Source: Aphanizomenon flos-aquae FACHB-1287
GTDB taxonomy: Bacteria > Cyanobacteriota > Cyanobacteriia > Cyanobacteriales > Nostocaceae
DNA length: 64,000 nucleotides
Direction of reading: 5' to 3'
NCBI RefSeq assembly: GCF_014698755.1
Contig: NZ_JACJTO010000026.1
Location: 1 to 64,000, forward strand
In this document: positions 1 to 5,829 of the stretch, one piece after another
Layout: every line of letters starts with the position of its first letter
Position numbering within the stretch: the first letter of the stretch is position 1
Notes under the pieces: generated by a model
What the model was told of the DNA's origin: nothing
Seen by the model: the letters and a program-made list of their open reading frames with translations, nothing else
Database searches by the model: none
Translations under genes and position numbers: made by a program

Positions 1-10
1 ATAATCATTT

Positions 11-766
11 TTGGGTAGTCCTTCCAGGATATTTTTGACAATCTTGGGAAATGAGTTTATGATCATGGTTAATCAAAATATTTTAATCCTTCGCCCAAAA
101 TTTAACATATTTTTGGCTATTTTTATCAGGCTTTTCTTAACATTCAACACTTCTGCCCTACAAGATATGTCTGAAAGATATTTGGGGCAAAAGTTCCCAC
201 ACTGGAAACCTTTAGAGAAAGGGTTAATTCCCATGCGTCCAGAAAATGAAGAAATCCAGGAAGGAATTGCAGATTTTAGATTACTTTTTGATCATTTAGC
301 TAATCTTCCCAGTTATAAAATATTAGAACATGAAGAAACAACGGTTTTACGTCGCTTCCATTTTGAAAAAGACGGGGGTGAGGGGAATATGTTATTTCGT
401 CCAGTTTCTCAAGTTGCTTTAGCGCAAGCTTTAGGAATTTTGGTATTTAAAAAAGGTTTTGCTTTGACGGATATTTTTAAGAAGTTGGAGAAATTTGACC
501 GTCAAGGGGGTTTTAGTGGTATGGAATATCCTCAATCTTTATGGTATGGAGTTTTATATGACCCTAATAAAAAGCGGGTACAGGTAGTAGGAAAAGATTT
601 AGCTGTGAAGTTATTAATTTATATTTTGGGGGGAATAACTGAACAAATGGAAGTTACTGCTTTACGTAAGGCTTTAGCCAATGCTAGGACTATAGAAGAA
701 CAAACTATAGGTTTTGATGGAAAGTTAGTCAAACCGCAGAATGTAGGACTACCAGTTATTTTATAA
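11..766 (+). pseudogene. C-terminal remnant of a DGQHR-domain (DndB-like) protein
   Basis: From about residue 53 onward the translation reads like the C-terminal half of DGQHR/DndB-type proteins, with the motifs GNMLFRPVSQVALAQALGIL, SLWYGVLYDPNKKRVQV and AVKLLIYILGG. DndB binds and regulates the dnd phosphorothioation operon. The DGQHR motif itself, expected in the N-terminal half, is absent. The first 50 residues are a hydrophobic stretch that does not resemble the family, and an in-frame stop lies at bases 2-4. The gene therefore looks 5'-truncated or frameshifted, although the start may lie outside the window. It converges on the HNH gene of the same island with an 11-bp gap. A short functional variant starting near base 172 (the ATG of DMSERY) cannot be excluded. 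Confidence 0.5.
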
Positions 767-776
767 TAATAGCTAA

Positions 777-1715
777 TTATGGCTGAAATATATGATCATG
801 ATGCCATTGCAAAGCTTCAATATCTGGAAAATACTTCTCTACTTTAGGTAATATGAGTATTTCCCCATGAAATTCTGTTATTGTTCTAGCGTGGGGAGAT
901 ACTTCTTCTAATTCTTTACTAACGATAATTTTGTATTTATCATCAACAGCAAACCAACCTCTATCAAAAGCCCAATGATGATTTTTACAAAGTGCTATTC
1001 CGTTATGTATTCTACTGTCATAAAAAGTGGAGAATGGCTTTATATGTGCGCCGTCAACAATATTTTGATTACCAGTTTTAGTAACTTTCAAGCCACAAAA
1101 AGCACATTGACAATCATATACAGAAACAACAGCTTTTCTAAAAAAGGCATTTCTAATTAGTGTTTTTTTAAAACTCCATTTAGGATTGTTGGGTAAATTT
1201 TCAGTATCATCTAGTTTTTCTACTTCTGGATAATCTTGAAAAGTCTGATTAATTTGTAAAAATTCCTCAATTTCATCTTCATTATCCGAGAAAAAAGCAG
1301 TTACCAATGCATCAATTAATTCTTTTCGGGAAGATTCATTTTGTAAATAGTTAAATAATTCACTGTCTAAATATGCGTATTCAACAGCCAATTTTAATTG
1401 GTTAGTTGTTTTTGGTTGTAAATTATTAAAACCTGCTTTAATTTCTACGTGCCAAAATCCCTCATTTTGTAGATGAAAAAATGGATAGTGTAAACCCCCT
1501 TTATAAGACTGTGAACCAATAACATTCCAATATTTATTAAAAGCTTGAATTAATTTATCTGAGACAAAAATTTTATTATCGGTAATGTCTCCTCTCATAA
1601 TCAAATCTATTACGGTTAAAAGTAGTATTGGTTTATATTGAGCATTACCACGTTTTCGACTATTACTTACTTTCAGCTTGGAAAACTTTTCACAATAAAA
1701 ATGAATATTATTCAT
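777..1715 (-). CDS. Phosphorothioated-DNA-binding HNH restriction endonuclease (SBD-HNH type)
   Basis: The protein has 312 residues. The N-terminal half (about 1-150) resembles the sulfur-binding domain of ScoMcrA-like enzymes: a YKPILLLTVIDLI helix, then PFFHLQNEGFWHV. The C-terminal third is an HNH nuclease with CAFC and CKNHHWAFDRGWF around an AHIKPFS loop, so the ββα-metal residues look intact. Known relatives recognise DNA with phosphorothioate (PT) backbones and cut it. It is the last gene of the minus-strand dnd cluster, 39 bp after the Dnd-associated protein 4 gene. The domain assignment by eye is fairly confident; dependence on PT is inferred from the N-terminal domain and the context. 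A plain HNH enzyme is the alternative. Confidence 0.75.
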   Translation of the reverse strand: MNNIHFYCEKFSKLKVSNSRKRGNAQYKPILLLTVIDLIMRGDITDNKIFVSDKLIQAFNKYWNVIGSQSYKGGLHYPFFHLQNEGFWHVEIKAGFNNLQPKTTNQLKLAVEYAYLDSELFNYLQNESSRKELIDALVTAFFSDNEDEIEEFLQINQTFQDYPEVEKLDDTENLPNNPKWSFKKTLIRNAFFRKAVVSVYDCQCAFCGLKVTKTGNQNIVDGAHIKPFSTFYDSRIHNGIALCKNHHWAFDRGWFAVDDKYKIIVSKELEEVSPHARTITEFHGEILILPKVEKYFPDIEALQWHHDHIFQP

Positions 1716-1754
1716 GTCTCACTACTTTGTAAAAATGCGGAAAAATGGATTATT

Positions 1755-2222
1755 TTAAAATCTAGTTAAATTGAATTCTTCTTCTATATTATTTTCTTGA
1801 TAATCTATTGCTTTCTTTAAAATCAATAGAAATTGTATTTGATAATCAACAACTCCACGCAATTCACTTTGTAATATTTCTAATCCCCCATTAGCATACT
1901 CTTCAAATACTTGAGTCCGCTTATCCTCATATTCATCTTCCCTAGAAGCAAGTATTTGGATATCACTTGTCTCAACAATTCCTAATAATTTGATAATTTT
2001 GTCATACCCAAGTGAAGCAAAATTGTCTTGTGGAATTGGAGAAGGCTCTCTTTTTGTGGTGTCTCCTAAAGGAACACTTTTTTTATACCTTACTCCTAAT
2101 GATGCTGCAAATACCATCACCTCCACATAAGTTTGGAAAAGTCCAGGTGTTTCTTTAGACGCTAGTAACGATTTCACCAACTCAGCCTTATCCTGAGCAA
2201 TTTTGATTCTATTTGCAGCCAT
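1755..2222 (-). CDS. Dnd system-associated protein 4
   Basis: The sequence matches the pattern of DNA phosphorothioation-associated protein 4: it begins MAANRIKIAQDKAELVKSLL, followed by GLFQTYVEVMVFAASLGVRY and a long helical C-terminus ending IEEEFNLTRF. Its biochemical role is unknown; the family is defined by its linkage to dnd genes. The open frame extends 12 codons further upstream, to 2258, but those residues look non-coding and the ATG at 2222 gives the normal 155-residue length. It lies 39 bp upstream of the HNH gene and is separated from the Uma2 gene by a short repeat-containing spacer (2223-2318). Family recognition is good; function is not known. Confidence 0.75.
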   Translation of the reverse strand: MAANRIKIAQDKAELVKSLLASKETPGLFQTYVEVMVFAASLGVRYKKSVPLGDTTKREPSPIPQDNFASLGYDKIIKLLGIVETSDIQILASREDEYEDKRTQVFEEYANGGLEILQSELRGVVDYQIQFLLILKKAIDYQENNIEEEFNLTRF

Positions 2223-2282
2223 AATTATAAAATACACACCCTTAACATCACAAAGCAAACCTAACTTACTAATACCACATAA

Positions 2283-2308
2283 TCACCCTCCCCTCCGCAC
2301 CTCTGCGA
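2283..2308. repeat. Short dispersed repeat (ACAGAG-type), copy 1
   Basis: CTCCGCACCTCTGCGAGAG, read on the minus strand, is related to the CACGCAGAG...CACAGAGAGGAGG family seen again at 3553-3582 and inside the chelatase gene at 51374-51411. It sits between two genes of the dnd island. Only part of the unit is kept. Confidence 0.45.
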
Positions 2309-2318
2309 GAGAAAAAAA

Positions 2319-2879
2319 TCAAAAAACATCCTCATAAACCAGAGAAAGAGGAAACCTAAAATCAACACTAACCAAATATACCTCATTACCCTCAACAAAA
2401 GGATGTAGCTCCCATAAACCCCTATCATTTAACCGAAAACAATCCAAACCCACCTTGTCAGCACTAATTAAAACATATTCCTGCAAAGTTGGAATCTGTC
2501 TATATAACTGAAACTTACCCCCCCTATCATAAGCTTCCGTACTCGGAGAAAGCACCTCAACAACTAAACTAGGAAATTGAATAAAATTAATCGCTTTTTT
2601 ATCTTTAGGGTGACAACTAACAACAACATCAGGATAAGTAAACGGACCATTCTCCGATATACCTACTTTAGCATCAGCCATAAAAGGACGACAATTACCA
2701 CCCCGCAAATGATTTTTCAACCCAGAAGCTAGATTTAAAGCAATAGTAGTATGAGGAATAGTTCCCCCGGTCATAGCAAAAACTTCACCATTGATATATT
2801 CATATTTAATATCTTGTTGTTCCTCCCACTCCAAATACTCCAAAGGACTCATATAACTTGTATCCGAACTAGCAACCAT
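2319..2879 (-). CDS. Uma2 family protein (predicted PD-(D/E)xK endonuclease)
   Basis: The 186-residue protein has the full Uma2/DUF820 pattern: MSPLEYLEWEEQQDIKYEYINGEVFAMTGG at the N-terminus, an NCRPFMADAKV strand, the PDVVVSC acid and the SLVVEVLSPSTEAYDRGGK block, which supply the PD-(D/E)xK-type active-site residues. The family is greatly expanded in cyanobacteria and its biological role is mostly unproven. It lies 32 bp downstream of a second, divergent Uma2 gene. Its position between dndD and Dnd-associated protein 4 suggests co-transcription with the island, but Uma2 genes turn up in many places, so a link to the Dnd system is only an inference. Confidence 0.85.
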   Translation of the reverse strand: MVASSDTSYMSPLEYLEWEEQQDIKYEYINGEVFAMTGGTIPHTTIALNLASGLKNHLRGGNCRPFMADAKVGISENGPFTYPDVVVSCHPKDKKAINFIQFPSLVVEVLSPSTEAYDRGGKFQLYRQIPTLQEYVLISADKVGLDCFRLNDRGLWELHPFVEGNEVYLVSVDFRFPLSLVYEDVF

Positions 2880-2911
2880 AACATTTACCTCCTGAATTTC
2901 CGTAAAATAAA

Positions 2912-3550
2912 TTAACTAAAAATTTGCAACAACCAGCGATTAACCTCACCATCATCTTGAGTTAAACTGCGTTGAATAGCTTCCTGAACAATAGCTATTT
3001 GTAAACCTAGTAAAACCTTGGACTCCTCAATTCTCCTACTACCCCCGTCAATAATTTCAAAAGCAATAATATCATTATTATTAGCATTCATTACCCAATA
3101 TTCCCTTACCCCCAACCGTTCATAAAGTAATCGTTTAAAACCTAAATCATCATTAATAGAAGCAGCAGCAACTTCTACCACTAGAGTAGGCGCTGCTAAC
3201 TCATTAATATTGACAGGAGAATTATTTAAAGGTGGAAATTTGATTTTATCCCCAATATAAAAAGCTAAATCAGGTTGACATTCACTTTCACCTATTTTTC
3301 TAAAGCTGGTATTCGTAGCTTCAACAATTTTGATATTCTTGAGAGTAGCAAATAAACTCACCACCTTAGAAACAATCGAATGATAACGGCCATGACGAAA
3401 ACCAACTGGTAACATTTCTACCCTCATATAATTTTGATAAAAATAAAATCTTCCTTGCTGATAATCAGAATGTTCAGCAACCTCCATAAACTCATCCCAA
3501 CTTACCTTTACCCAACTATCAGTAACCAAACTTAAAGAACTAACAACCAT
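2912..3550 (-). CDS. Uma2 family protein (divergent copy)
   Basis: This is a 212-residue Uma2-type protein. It shows an N-terminal SWDEFMEVAEHSDYQQGRFYF helix-strand segment, ECQPDLAFYIGDK with the first catalytic-type Asp, and APTLVVEVAAASINDDLGFK with the Glu and Lys expected of a PD-(D/E)xK fold. It then follows the usual YERLGVREYWVMN pattern. It is longer and quite different from the neighbouring Uma2 protein, so the pair is not a recent tandem duplication. It starts 42 bp downstream of dndD, with a short dispersed repeat filling that spacer. Nuclease activity is a family prediction. Confidence 0.85.
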   Translation of the reverse strand: MVVSSLSLVTDSWVKVSWDEFMEVAEHSDYQQGRFYFYQNYMRVEMLPVGFRHGRYHSIVSKVVSLFATLKNIKIVEATNTSFRKIGESECQPDLAFYIGDKIKFPPLNNSPVNINELAAPTLVVEVAAASINDDLGFKRLLYERLGVREYWVMNANNNDIIAFEIIDGGSRRIEESKVLLGLQIAIVQEAIQRSLTQDDGEVNRWLLQIFS

Positions 3551-3552
3551 AA

Positions 3553-3582
3553 CTCCGTTCCTCCTCTCTGTGACTCTGCGTG
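3553..3582. repeat. Short dispersed repeat (ACAGAG-type), copy 2
   Basis: The plus-strand sequence CTCCTCTCTGTGACTCTGCG fills most of the dndD/Uma2 spacer. Its complement belongs to the same family as the element inside the chelatase coding region at 51374-51411. Confidence 0.6.
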
Positions 3583-3592
3583 AAAAAAATCC

Positions 3593-5659
3593 TCATTCAA
3601 CCTCAACAATTTCAGTATATTCAAAACCATTCAAACTCTGTCGAACCAAAGAATATTTTTCCCTACCTAACTCAATAAAATCCTGTTCACAATTAGGTTT
3701 AGAAGAATAATAAACCAAAACATATTCCTTCCCAATCTTATCAGCAATTTCCTCCTCAACTTCTACCCTCCATTGAGTCTTAGTTACCAACACAACCAAC
3801 TGATTTGCTAACTTAGGAATAGTTCGCGCAATGTGACGACGAGAATTAGCGTCTAAACTACCAAAAGGAGAATCCATGACAATAGGAAAAGTGCTACTAT
3901 CAGGAACCATCATCATTTTTCGTCTTTCACTCCAGTCGCGCACCTTATCAATAATACTAGCGATAAAAGATAAACTGAGAATTTGATTTTCTCCCGTAGA
4001 AGCTGCGACTGGTGCTTCAATTCCCGTCGTATTTTCCACTAAACTTAATTCATACTTTTCGCTAATTTTGGGAATATAGGGAGTAAAAGAAATATCGGAA
4101 AATATTTCCTGTACCCGCTGTTCTAATTGGAGACGAAATTGATTTTCTTGACGGTTTTTAACTTCCGATAACCGTTCAATTGCATCCTGAGTAGCATTAA
4201 TGCGACGCTGTGCTAAAGATTGTTTTTCCTCATTTTGTTTTTGCTTAGATATTTGTTTTATTAAAGCATCAATAGCTGCTTTTAGATGAGAAAGTTCCTG
4301 TCGATTTGCACCCTGTTCTCGATTTAATTCATCAATTTTAGCTTCAATTTCATCAAGACGTTTTTGTAAACCACTAATTTCCTCATTGGGATCTTTTCGT
4401 AGTTGTTCCTGAATATTAGCTAATTCCAGTTCAACTTGATCGAGATTTTCCTTTAACTGTTGAATTCGTCCTTGTTCTCTATCTGCTTCTTCCCAAAATC
4501 CAAGTGCTTGTTTATCAATTTCATCAACTTGTGCACTCATTCTAATTGCGGTTTCTTCCACAGTTGAAGAACCTGCTTTTTTCATTAAATTCTTAACATG
4601 AAAATGAGTATGAGTTCCTTCTCTTAAATCCGCACCACAAATACAACGTCCAGAAGTAAGTAAATCATTGACAAATTCCTGTGAAATTCCCGCAGTTAAT
4701 TCACCTCGTTGTTTTAAATCTGTGAATATTTCCCGAAATTTAGCTGTAGTTTCCGATAATAAAACAGTATAACCCCGTGCGGAAATAACCTTTTTTAAAT
4801 TCTCCTTTGTTTTTTTCAACTCTTGCAATAAACTATTTTTTTGAGATTCTAAACTTTGCTTTCTTTCCTGTAATTCCTTGACAGCACTCAATTCTCGTAA
4901 TTTATTACTAATCTCCTTTTTAAAAGTCTGTTGATATTCTAATTCTTGATTTATTTCCGTTTGACGTTTATTAATGTTTTCAATTTCTAATTCTTGCTTT
5001 TCTTGCTTAGTTAATAACTGTTTTGTTTCCGGATCACCAATATGTTTTAAATCAGTTTCCAAAGACTTCTTAGCGTCTTTTAAGTGTTTAATAGAAAGTT
5101 CGATTACTTCCACACCTAAAAAAGTTCTAATGGCTTCAGAAATTTCCGCTTTATTATTAGAACGGACAATTTCTTCAATGCGTTCACCGTCAAAGAAAAA
5201 ATATTGATGTAAACTTAATGGTAAAATCTGAGTAATAATTTCCTCAGCTTGTTGAATAGGAAAATACCATTTTCCGTCATCTCCAGCAACTTGAATTTTT
5301 AACTGAGTTTTCCCAGCTTCAATCACATCACTTTCATTTTTATAAACCCGACAACCACGAGTAGCACGATAACGATTACCTTCATGTTCCCAACCAACTT
5401 CTACCCAACATTCCACAGGTTGTCCAGGTTCAGATTCCGCAATTGCACGTTTATTTACTAACTGTTCAGTTGACGCAAAAGCCGCACTAAATTTCTCATA
5501 CAAAACCCAAGTGAACGCATTCAAAATACTGGTTTTACCTGCGCCATTACTACCATAAATCATCGTCGTATTGCGAATATTTCCACCAGCTAAAGTTACC
5601 TCTGGTGTTTTTCCGTAAAATGAACGAAAATTACATAATTTAATCGAAGTTAGCTTCAT
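3593..5659 (-). CDS. dndD: DNA phosphorothioation protein DndD (SMC/Rad50-like ATPase)
   Basis: The protein has 688 residues, the usual size for DndD. The N-terminus (about 1-200) is a Rad50-like ATPase head with Walker A GSNGAGKTSILNAF and FFFDGERIEEIVRSN. A long coiled coil spans about 200-520, with a central CICGADL turn resembling a zinc-hook or hairpin. The C-terminal head carries the signature STGENQILSLSFIASI and Walker B FPIVMDSPFGSLD. DndD supplies ATPase or DNA-nicking functions in the DndBCDE machinery, which replaces a non-bridging phosphate oxygen with sulfur. The start codon overlaps the stop of the upstream 57-residue gene (ATGA), so the two are translationally coupled. No dndC is seen upstream, which is unusual. 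Confidence 0.85.
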   Translation of the reverse strand: MKLTSIKLCNFRSFYGKTPEVTLAGGNIRNTTMIYGSNGAGKTSILNAFTWVLYEKFSAAFASTEQLVNKRAIAESEPGQPVECWVEVGWEHEGNRYRATRGCRVYKNESDVIEAGKTQLKIQVAGDDGKWYFPIQQAEEIITQILPLSLHQYFFFDGERIEEIVRSNNKAEISEAIRTFLGVEVIELSIKHLKDAKKSLETDLKHIGDPETKQLLTKQEKQELEIENINKRQTEINQELEYQQTFKKEISNKLRELSAVKELQERKQSLESQKNSLLQELKKTKENLKKVISARGYTVLLSETTAKFREIFTDLKQRGELTAGISQEFVNDLLTSGRCICGADLREGTHTHFHVKNLMKKAGSSTVEETAIRMSAQVDEIDKQALGFWEEADREQGRIQQLKENLDQVELELANIQEQLRKDPNEEISGLQKRLDEIEAKIDELNREQGANRQELSHLKAAIDALIKQISKQKQNEEKQSLAQRRINATQDAIERLSEVKNRQENQFRLQLEQRVQEIFSDISFTPYIPKISEKYELSLVENTTGIEAPVAASTGENQILSLSFIASIIDKVRDWSERRKMMMVPDSSTFPIVMDSPFGSLDANSRRHIARTIPKLANQLVVLVTKTQWRVEVEEEIADKIGKEYVLVYYSSKPNCEQDFIELGREKYSLVRQSLNGFEYTEIVEVE

Positions 5660-5829
5660 TGTACCGCTTCCTTCACAATAGTGAGAATATCATCATTAAT
5701 ATGACCTTTGCTCTTTCTATCTAACCGACTTTTCTCCAATCTCCAGACCTTCTCGATAATTTGCTTAACTTCCGGTGGTGCGCTGGTAATTGGTTCTTGA
5801 ACATCTTCAATATTTGATTCTGGTATCAT
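5656..5829 (-). CDS. Small 57-residue protein coupled to dndD
   Basis: This short reading frame begins MIPESNIEDVQEPITS and ends ILTIVKEAVQ. It is rich in charged residues and likely helical (KQIIEKVWRLEKSRLDRK). Its TGA overlaps the dndD ATG by four bases, the classic sign of translational coupling, which supports it as a real gene. It occupies the place where dndC would normally precede dndD. Function is unknown; a helper or assembly partner of DndD is an inference from the coupling alone. No good Shine-Dalgarno is visible before the ATG. The spacer upstream is AT-rich. Confidence 0.65.
   Translation of the reverse strand: MIPESNIEDVQEPITSAPPEVKQIIEKVWRLEKSRLDRKSKGHINDDILTIVKEAVQ

Follow-up and report, generated by a model that had tools for sequence, protein, structure and literature searches.

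Among the described phosphorothioation (PT) systems, the closest to the locus studied here are the tandem DndDE and CxC-ATPase-DndE systems (PbeABCD) presented by Rakesh, Aravind and Krishnan in 2024 (PMC10853773). Our locus shares with them a CxC ATPase and, as candidate counterparts, a small protein and a DndE-like gene beside dndBCDE, and the same paper reports SBD-containing HNH genes in Dnd loci of 698 taxa. With ScoMcrA, SprMcrA and EcoWI it shares the SBD fold, the pocket K28, Y77 and P78 and a C-terminal HNH domain (PMC6224610, PMC7470945, PMC7461809); according to the same sources, a PT writer is found alongside less than 3.6% of type IV SBD-HNH enzymes. According to PMC7461809, one would not expect to find SBD-HNH nucleases next to a PT writer that has the same specificity. 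In DndBCDE-DndI and SspABCD-SspE a PT reader and an HNH nuclease are coupled to their own PT writer (PMC11662687), and such a coupling may exist here. The likeness to DndBCDE-DndFGH lies in the modification genes. Cyanobacteria are described in PMC8569181 as devoid of the PT restriction part DndFGH.

The locus also differs from these systems. Unlike PbeABCD, it has no visible PbeA (an HKD nuclease with an SF2 helicase) beside it, its HNH protein is without an SRA domain according to Pfam, its modules lie scattered in several genomes but are inherited together, and its small protein, instead of evolving rapidly, is strongly conserved across the genus. In this genome PLDc_2 was confined to ORFs of 508-739 aa, all of them on contigs other than C19 and C65, the two contigs discussed below. 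In contrast to ScoMcrA, SprMcrA and EcoWI, the SBD-HNH protein is encoded with a PT writer and co-varies with it, and in contrast to DndI and SspE the reader is an SBD and not a DUF262 NTPase. The DptH family model gave no match in 120 relatives; the controls were equally silent, so the absence of this family is not demonstrated.

Results

The window, that is the whole stretch of 64,000 nucleotides that was analysed, corresponds to C19:1-64000, and the gene run therefore touches the contig end at base 1 of C19. The first-pass annotation had described this run as an incomplete island in which dndC and dndE were absent. We found both genes on another contig of the same genome, C65 (11,050 bp), which carries dndE, dndD, dndC and a dndB part encoding residues 1-332 (dndC, TIGR03183, 577.7 bits; dndD, TIGR03185, 710.3 bits; dndE, PF08870, 154 bits; each above cut-off). 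The end of C65 is the other half of the window's dndB and adjoins dndC, dndD and dndE. The 3' part of dndB, which encodes the final 200 residues, is located at 164..766 on the plus strand, so the truncated DndB-like end facing the minus-strand run was correctly noticed; no Pfam or PADLOC family matched it, and its name is taken from relatives. In tblastn comparisons with three relatives the two parts of dndB abut to the base. The gene order was common to 15/15 same-genus genomes (within the stretches examined) and to the named relatives. The apparent absence of dndC and dndE is thus an effect of the contig edge, and the suggestion that they sit elsewhere was literally right: they are on C65, and adjacent in relatives. 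We rejected the incomplete island on account of the contig edge, the dndBCDE genes on C65 and the abutting dndB parts. Judging from sequence, the run very probably makes up one half of a cyanobacterial Dnd locus with two modules, in which the 57-aa protein, the CxC ATPase, the Uma2 proteins, protein 4 and SBD-HNH stand beside dndB and dndC-dndD-dndE.

Positions 1..155 of the window (no strand assigned) are the end of a multicopy IS-like element interrupting dndB at the assembly break, and the other end closes contig C65 (C65:10892-11050). The terminal repeats are alike at 15/17 positions, and a 9-bp target-site duplication was found at 156..164 (no strand assigned) and C65:10883-10891. The IS-like end has at least 40 matches in its own genome, where 40 of 102 candidates were scored; 27 matches are at least 112 nt long, and among these 12 start at base 1 of a contig and one stops at the last base of C45. 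A Pfam search with the transposase-like part was without result. As read from the sequence, dndB is cut by an IS-like insertion that coincides with the contig break.

The dndC gene on C65 lacks 41 nt directly after the PP-loop and has lost its frame, as compared with five relatives, and a search for a second dndC in the same genome found none. The genome search recovered dndC and dndE, with dndC frameshifted and dndB split. Since the 41-nt deletion shifts the frame of dndC, PT modification is probably lost or very low in FACHB-1287. The earlier statement that modification has been lost is thus probably right, but the route is different: a frameshift in dndC and an IS-like element in dndB, and not gene absence. 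The 41-nt gap could also be an assembly error.

The composition of the minus-strand run (57-aa protein, DndD-like ATPase, two Uma2 proteins, protein 4, SBD-HNH) was confirmed. The ATPase (3593..5659, minus strand) reached 1139 bits with PADLOC PbeC and only 159.5 bits with the TIGR03185 DndD equivalog, below the cut-off of 245.85. As PADLOC PbeC models match true DndD too, the class of the ATPase is decided by the CxC motif (RCICG at residue 339), which was present in 46/46 ATPase relatives and not in the true DndD of C65. The score below cut-off, the motif and the true DndD on C65 led us to reject this ATPase as DndD. A repurposed DndD was likewise rejected: the protein is a second, CxC-type (PbeC-like) ATPase, a normal companion of dndC. 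PDB sequence relatives of the ATPase were sought without result.

The gene of the 57-aa protein (5656..5829, minus strand) shares an ATGA overlap with the ATPase gene. The coupling claimed for it is real, but the partner is the CxC-type ATPase and not DndD. This 4-nt overlap was kept in 45/45 loci, and dN/dS of the small protein was 0.02-0.03 against three relatives; it had no Pfam or PADLOC match and is PbeB/SP-like by position and size only. The two Uma2-family proteins (2319..2879, PF05685 134.3 bits; 2912..3550, PF05685 68 bits; both on the minus strand) are probable passengers, with Uma2 standing between the ATPase and protein 4 in 33/46 loci.

We compared the occurrence of the ATPase and dndC in two sets, compiled by hand from several searches, with p values uncorrected for phylogeny (120 genomes: 106 both, 3 + 3 discordant, 8 neither, p = 3e-8; 244 genomes: 62 both, 4 + 4 discordant, 174 neither, p = 7e-48). 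ATPase places below 42% identity were not scored as orthologs; a gene was scored as present even where its copy was partial or broken (e.g. ATPase in G057, G166, G231 and G236; dndC in G029, G035 and G100). By these sequence counts the CxC ATPase is co-inherited with dndC.

Protein 4 (1755..2222, minus strand) was named correctly as Dnd-associated protein 4 (TIGR04062, 174.8 bits, cut-off 74.25). The best PDB fold match of its AF2 model (pLDDT 84.8) was DndE, and this match was weak (E = 0.2, probability 0.96; none at 0.001). We observed no significant link to DndE by hhalign, no PADLOC support as PbeD and no sequence relatives in the PDB. The model makes protein 4 a candidate second DndE (PbeD-like), predicted to fold like DndE. 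The alignments comprised the window protein and 42/57 loci for protein 4, and the C65 copy and 21/48 loci for DndE.

The predicted SBD-HNH nuclease (777..1715, minus strand; 312 aa) has its SBD at about 7-141 and its HNH at about 184-310. It matched 8h0l (SBDHga) with 78 bits and PF13391 with 48 bits, and scored 122.8 bits with NF045808, under the cut-off of 180; a literature search for SBDHga was without result. Its model (pLDDT 79.2; low at 18-25, 165-178 and 218-231) matched by Foldseek 8h0l (E = 1.4e-9), then SprMcrA (1.2e-3) and ScoMcrA (6.4e-3), and the pocket residues are Y27, K28, Y77 and P78. Both sequence and predicted structure thus have the SBD fold with its sulfur pocket, and the 8h0l match, fold, pocket and C-terminal HNH identify a true SBD-HNH protein, as had been proposed. 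Pfam detected only HNH_2, with no N-terminal DUF262 and no SRA domain. Elsewhere in the genome, DUF262 was found in four ORFs (363-530 aa) on C23 and C34, and none at the locus.

Among the best 80 of 181 relatives, dndC was present in 77/80 SBD-HNH loci; the SBD-HNH gene preceded dndC by no more than 84 nt in 33 of these 77, and in 39 dndB lay between the two. In the 120 genomes, dndC was nearby in 28/29 HNH places with at least 47% identity over at least 200 residues, and the DndC ORF was in the full-length range in 89/95 loci. HNH matches were obtained in 57/120 relatives, many distant or fragmentary, and 63/120 had no match whatever. Fragments of HNH occurred beside dndC in G017 and G042, and short HNH ORFs in 5/80 loci. 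The window HNH was 93% identical to one relative (dN/dS 0.11-0.16). In the HNH alignment (window and 54/75 loci; the alignments cover loci with an ORF within the length range) the HNH motif was conserved and the pocket mostly so. K28 was replaced by Q in 13/76 HNH proteins; the equivalent change weakened PT binding in ScoMcrA (PMC6224610).

The DndC core, protein 4 and a slot gene tended to change together around dndB among 15 sister species, some of which had different sets on a 97-99% identical backbone. The slot gene is either SBD-HNH or a second DGQHR protein, the latter in 9/15 same-genus genomes; the DGQHR motif was readable in 9/9 slot proteins, and 2/4 scanned passed the TIGR03187 cut-off. 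The DGQHR sets matched loosely: two different slot genes accompanied loop RQK, and RGK and RQK were not separated by protein 4. Five pairs were checked for dndB; in three it stayed with the backbone, and in the other two, G008/G012 and G007/G013, it did not clearly do so.

Partial Mantel correlations (33-56 loci, with controls) on the ATPase backbone were significant for HNH-protein 4 (0.60), HNH-DndC core (0.43) and protein 4-DndC core (0.54; p = 0.001 for all), and not significant for HNH-DndB, HNH-DndD, HNH-DndE and DndC ends-core. When DndB served as the backbone, significance extended to HNH-DndD (0.33, p = 0.001) and, weakly, to HNH-ATPase (0.19, p = 0.006). Four genus loci, judged by their lengths to lie on the contigs of L034, L035, L036 and L060, were dropped from the partial Mantel and pocket tables. 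Pocket Y77 was present in 26/27 loci with K as the third DndC-loop residue and in 5/22 with R, in a split picked after the table was seen and in counts without one HNH protein that is gapped at residue 77. Comparison of RxK/R loops with all others gave no association with Y77 (p = 0.28). One published pattern (Arg-Xxx-Lys/Arg, GpsGCC) fitted 65/89 DndC loops; the sets may therefore share a DNA site, and the co-variation may reflect protein contacts.

Discussion

In these alignments, what appears to be new is the joint change of DndC core, protein 4 and slot gene, and the co-variation of the HNH sulfur pocket with the DndC specificity loop. We propose, with some hesitation, a PT-licensed mechanism in intact relatives. 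DndCDE would write PT marks with a desulfurase assumed to be the housekeeping IscS, and the DndC specificity loop would account for part of the site choice. A second DNA-scanning complex would be formed by the CxC ATPase, the small protein and protein 4 with its predicted DndE-like fold. SBD-HNH would read the PT mark of its own DndC, and the mark would license cutting of incoming DNA, as for SspE; binding to the own mark could also inhibit rather than license. The DndC core, protein 4 and the effector would be swapped as a matched set, as R-M systems change specificity.

The co-variation of pocket and loop, together with the set exchange, argues for a reader matched to its own PT mark and not for a type IV enzyme. 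That specificity changes by exchange of a matched writer-reader set (DndC core, protein 4, SBD-HNH or second DGQHR) flanking a backbone-bound dndB, with SBD-HNH reading its own PT mark, is a still more tentative suggestion than the mechanism; our confidence in it is lower, since only three of the five pairs show dndB following the backbone and the match within the DGQHR sets is loose. Islands on both sides of dndB could enter together by patchy transformation. Anatomy, mechanism and matched-set exchange taken as one explanation seem fairly probable to us.

It is doubtful that HNH is dispensable and simply carried along in a variable slot, co-varying by linkage in patchy transformation, while the core locus is redox/epigenetic. 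The patchy and often fragmentary HNH hits, the fragments and short ORFs, the DGQHR protein in the slot and the antioxidant origin argued in PMC8569181 fit this reading, but purifying selection, the conserved HNH motif, the mostly conserved pocket and the partial Mantel results speak against it. An unlikely reading is type IV anti-PT defence, in which SBD-HNH, now that modification has disappeared, cuts PT DNA that enters the cell. Published SBD-HNH enzymes do so (PMC6224610, PMC7461809), ScoMcrA and SprMcrA resemble ours in SBD and HNH, and dndC is frameshifted in FACHB-1287; however, dndC stands near HNH in nearly all relatives' loci, mostly as an ORF in the full-length range, and HNH co-varies with DndC. 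With a CxC-type ATPase in addition, the proposed type IV defence with a repurposed DndD found no support, although SBD-HNH may act as type IV in FACHB-1287 alone. Rather less likely is that SBD-HNH attacks unmodified DNA while the own PT mark protects the host, as DndI acts (PMC11662687). The gene pairing and matched exchange are typical of R-M pairs, but DndI has a DUF262 NTPase domain that Pfam does not find here, and dndC is frameshifted while HNH is open, which would be toxic under this reading if HNH were expressed and active; this concerns one genome only. We consider it similarly improbable that the lesions arose in assembly and that the living strain has an intact system: the IS-like repeats stand at contig ends and the lesions were read from the assembly, but the duplication and terminal repeats match a real insertion, and a 41-nt gap away from repeats is, in our judgement, unusual for assembly.

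In summary, a reader nuclease inside the writer's locus that changes with the specificity loop would, if true, bear on the quoted statements of PMC7461809 and PMC8569181. The sister species with different sets, together with one strain whose writer is broken and whose reader gene is open, are ready-made test pairs. If our reading is true, specificity in Dnd would be set by the DndC core and protein 4, and not by DndD or the canonical DndE.

Layout of the locus and the contig break

The minus strand of the window (positions 1-64000 of contig C19, in an assembly of 85 contigs) encodes a 57-residue protein, a DndD-like ATPase, two Uma2 proteins, a TIGR04062 protein (protein 4) and an HNH protein, facing the end of a DndB on the plus strand. 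This arrangement agrees with the first-pass annotation, which had also reported that dndC and dndE were absent. Both genes were located in the same genome, on contig C65, together with dndD, a gene for a 23S-rRNA-IVP-like protein and the part of dndB encoding residues 1-332. The search recovered dndC and dndE, and dndB was split between C65 and C19 and not intact. An IS-like element with terminal repeats alike at 15 of 17 positions and a 9-bp duplication forms both the end of C65 and the start of C19. DndB residues 1-332 and the 200 residues encoded on C19 abut to the base in three relatives. The order protein 4, slot gene (the gene between protein 4 and dndB), facing dndB, dndC, dndD, dndE was found in 15/15 same-genus genomes as far as their contigs allow (in G001 the contig stops after dndC). 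The 57-residue protein was not found in one of them, G013. The apparent gap at dndC and dndE is a contig edge.

The IS-like sequence at the C19 end has at least 40 matches in its own genome, and at least 27 of these reach or exceed 112 nt; among the listed matches of that length at least 12 begin at contig base 1. Twelve or more contigs of the assembly open with this multicopy element (C19:1-155), and genes at other contig ends may likewise appear truncated.

The CxC-type ATPase, the small protein and protein 4

The window ATPase, previously named DndD, scored 159.5 bits with the DndD model (cut-off 245.85), while the true DndD on C65 scored 710.3; the two proteins are 26% identical. A CxC hook, absent from true DndD, was present in 46/46 relatives of the window ATPase. 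Judged by sequence, this protein is a second, CxC-type ATPase, matching the PbeC type outlined by Rakesh et al. 2024 (PMC10853773). The gene of the 57-residue protein (5656-5829, minus strand) shares 4 nt with the ATPase gene at 45/45 related loci. It was under the strongest constraint of four genes tested (dN/dS 0.02-0.03), whereas small proteins of described CxC systems evolve rapidly.

Among 120 relatives, the ATPase was present in 109, protein 4 in 108 and dndC over the cut-off in 109. ATPase and dndC were both found in 106 and both missing from 8, with 3 + 3 discordant; for 244 genomes drawn over the phylum the values were 62, 174 and 4 + 4 (in both counts kinship was ignored and broken copies were scored as present). 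Since ATPase, protein 4 and dndC are widely separated on one contig in several genomes (e.g. G080, G083, G110), their co-inheritance is more than mere linkage.

The AF2 model of protein 4 had a pLDDT of 84.8. DndE structures made up five of its ten top-ranked PDB matches in Foldseek, the first-ranked one among them (7x4e, E 0.2, probability 0.96; 5wtu; 4lrv three times); none reached E 0.001. Comparing the profiles of protein 4 and DndE yielded no useful match, so the suggested link to DndE is one of predicted fold only.

The SBD-HNH nuclease and its association with dndC

Both SBD and HNH were recovered by sequence and by fold, in agreement with the earlier assignment. Named relatives of the HNH protein, at 91-93%, come from Anabaena sp. 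UHCC 0204 and two Dolichospermum, and our genome was accordingly taken to belong with them. Alignment with 5zmo placed Y27, K28, Y77 and P78 at the ScoMcrA pocket residues H116, R117, Y164 and P165, respectively (PMC6224610). Among 76 sequences, 63 have K and 13 have Q at residue 28, and 74 have P at residue 78; residues of the HNH motif were conserved at 95% or more.

dndC was present in 77 of 80 HNH loci (the best 80 of 181 relatives): dndB lay between in 39, HNH stood no more than 84 nt before dndC in 33, and the distance was 332-3831 nt in 5. Across 120 genomes, 28 of 29 HNH places with at least 47% identity over at least 200 residues were within 3.6 kb of dndC (our genome taken across the contig junction), against 2 of 10 places of 41-46% identity. 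SBD-HNH relatives of 41-47% identity lie away from dndC in dndC-bearing genomes (G013:C12, G018:C2, G034:C279, G040:C4, G044:C21, G061:C526, G062:C10 with dndC split, G066:C23, G096:C4).

This cyanobacterial pairing contrasts with statements that under 3.6% of SBD-HNH enzymes are encoded with a phosphorothioation (PT) writer (PMC7461809) and that the PT restriction part, dndFGH, is absent from cyanobacteria (PMC8569181). There is precedent for the pairing itself, because SBD-SRA-HNH genes are listed in Dnd loci of 698 taxa (PMC10853773).

Proposed exchange of the DndC middle, protein 4 and the slot gene

Fu et al. 2025 (PMC12193691) assign the specificity of DndC to a loop, GYPAP-xxx-FRW, which reads RNK in our genome and RNK, RNR, RGK, RQK or RNQ in the genus. 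The slot gene of the 15 same-genus genomes encodes SBD-HNH in 6, a roughly 400-aa DGQHR protein in 8 and one of 661 aa in 1; a second DGQHR (DndB-like) protein replaces SBD-HNH at loci L136-L142, L148 and L149 (9/15). DndC ends were 82-98% identical between these genomes, and the DndC middle (residues 70-390) was 95-100% identical within types and 66-82% between types. Protein 4 was 89-97% identical among five genomes sharing one SBD-HNH type (loop RNK) and 51-60% identical to the rest. It did not separate RGK from RQK genomes, and loop RQK occurred with two different slot genes.

In 15/15 genomes the nearest ATPase neighbour (96.5-99.1%) carried a different DndC loop, and in 11/15 the slot also differed (HNH against DGQHR). 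In three such pairs sliding identity fell at protein 4 and the slot, rose over dndB and fell again in the dndC middle, the last drop being smallest in G002/G011. dndB tracked the backbone in G015/G003 (two parts, 97.0 and 97.1%, vs 94.0 and 93.2% for G015/G009), G009/G005 and G002/G011, and gave no decision in G008/G012 and G007/G013.

With the ATPase as backbone, partial Mantel correlations were 0.60 for HNH-protein 4, 0.43 for HNH-DndC middle and 0.54 for protein 4-DndC middle (p = 0.001 for all three, the lowest value that 999 shuffles allow); HNH-DndB (0.12), HNH-DndD (0.08), HNH-DndE (-0.18) and DndC ends-middle (0.09) were not significant. With DndB as backbone the first three were 0.64, 0.51 and 0.57, but correlation then extended to HNH-DndD (0.33, p = 0.001) and, weakly, to HNH-ATPase (0.19, p = 0.006). 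We found no report of this set exchange in the literature searched, mainly titles and abstract openings.

Pocket residue Y77 accompanied K as third loop residue in 26/27 loci, R in 5/22 and others in 16/21. After HNH proteins were collapsed at 75% identity (37 clusters) the values were 6/7, 5/19 and 10/11 (K vs R, p = 0.021, a split picked after the data had been seen); RxK/R loops against all others gave p = 0.28. By protein 4 class, Y77 occurred in 24/24 HNH of class I and 13/31 of class II.

State of the writer and proposed function of the reader

dndB is interrupted by the IS-like element. Compared with five relatives, dndC is short by 41 nt directly after the PP-loop, which breaks the frame and leaves the remainder open. 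The frames of HNH, ATPase, protein 4, the small protein, dndD and dndE are open. No second dndC was found in the genome with PF01507 or TIGR03183. Because dndB is split, dndC is frame-broken and no other dndC was found, PT is probably absent from this strain. The proposed loss of modification would therefore hold, but by the dndC frameshift and the insertion in dndB, not by missing genes. dndC or ATPase genes are broken, split or partial also in G029, G035, G057, G062 and G100.

If reader and writer change together, the reader should encounter the PT mark of its own cell. It would therefore be either licensed by PT, as SspE, or held off by PT, as DndI, the latter mode being described as toxic without PT (PMC11662687). 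As the HNH gene is open beside a broken dndC, this single genome would, provided that the gene is expressed, favour the PT-licensed, SspE-like mode for the HNH nuclease.
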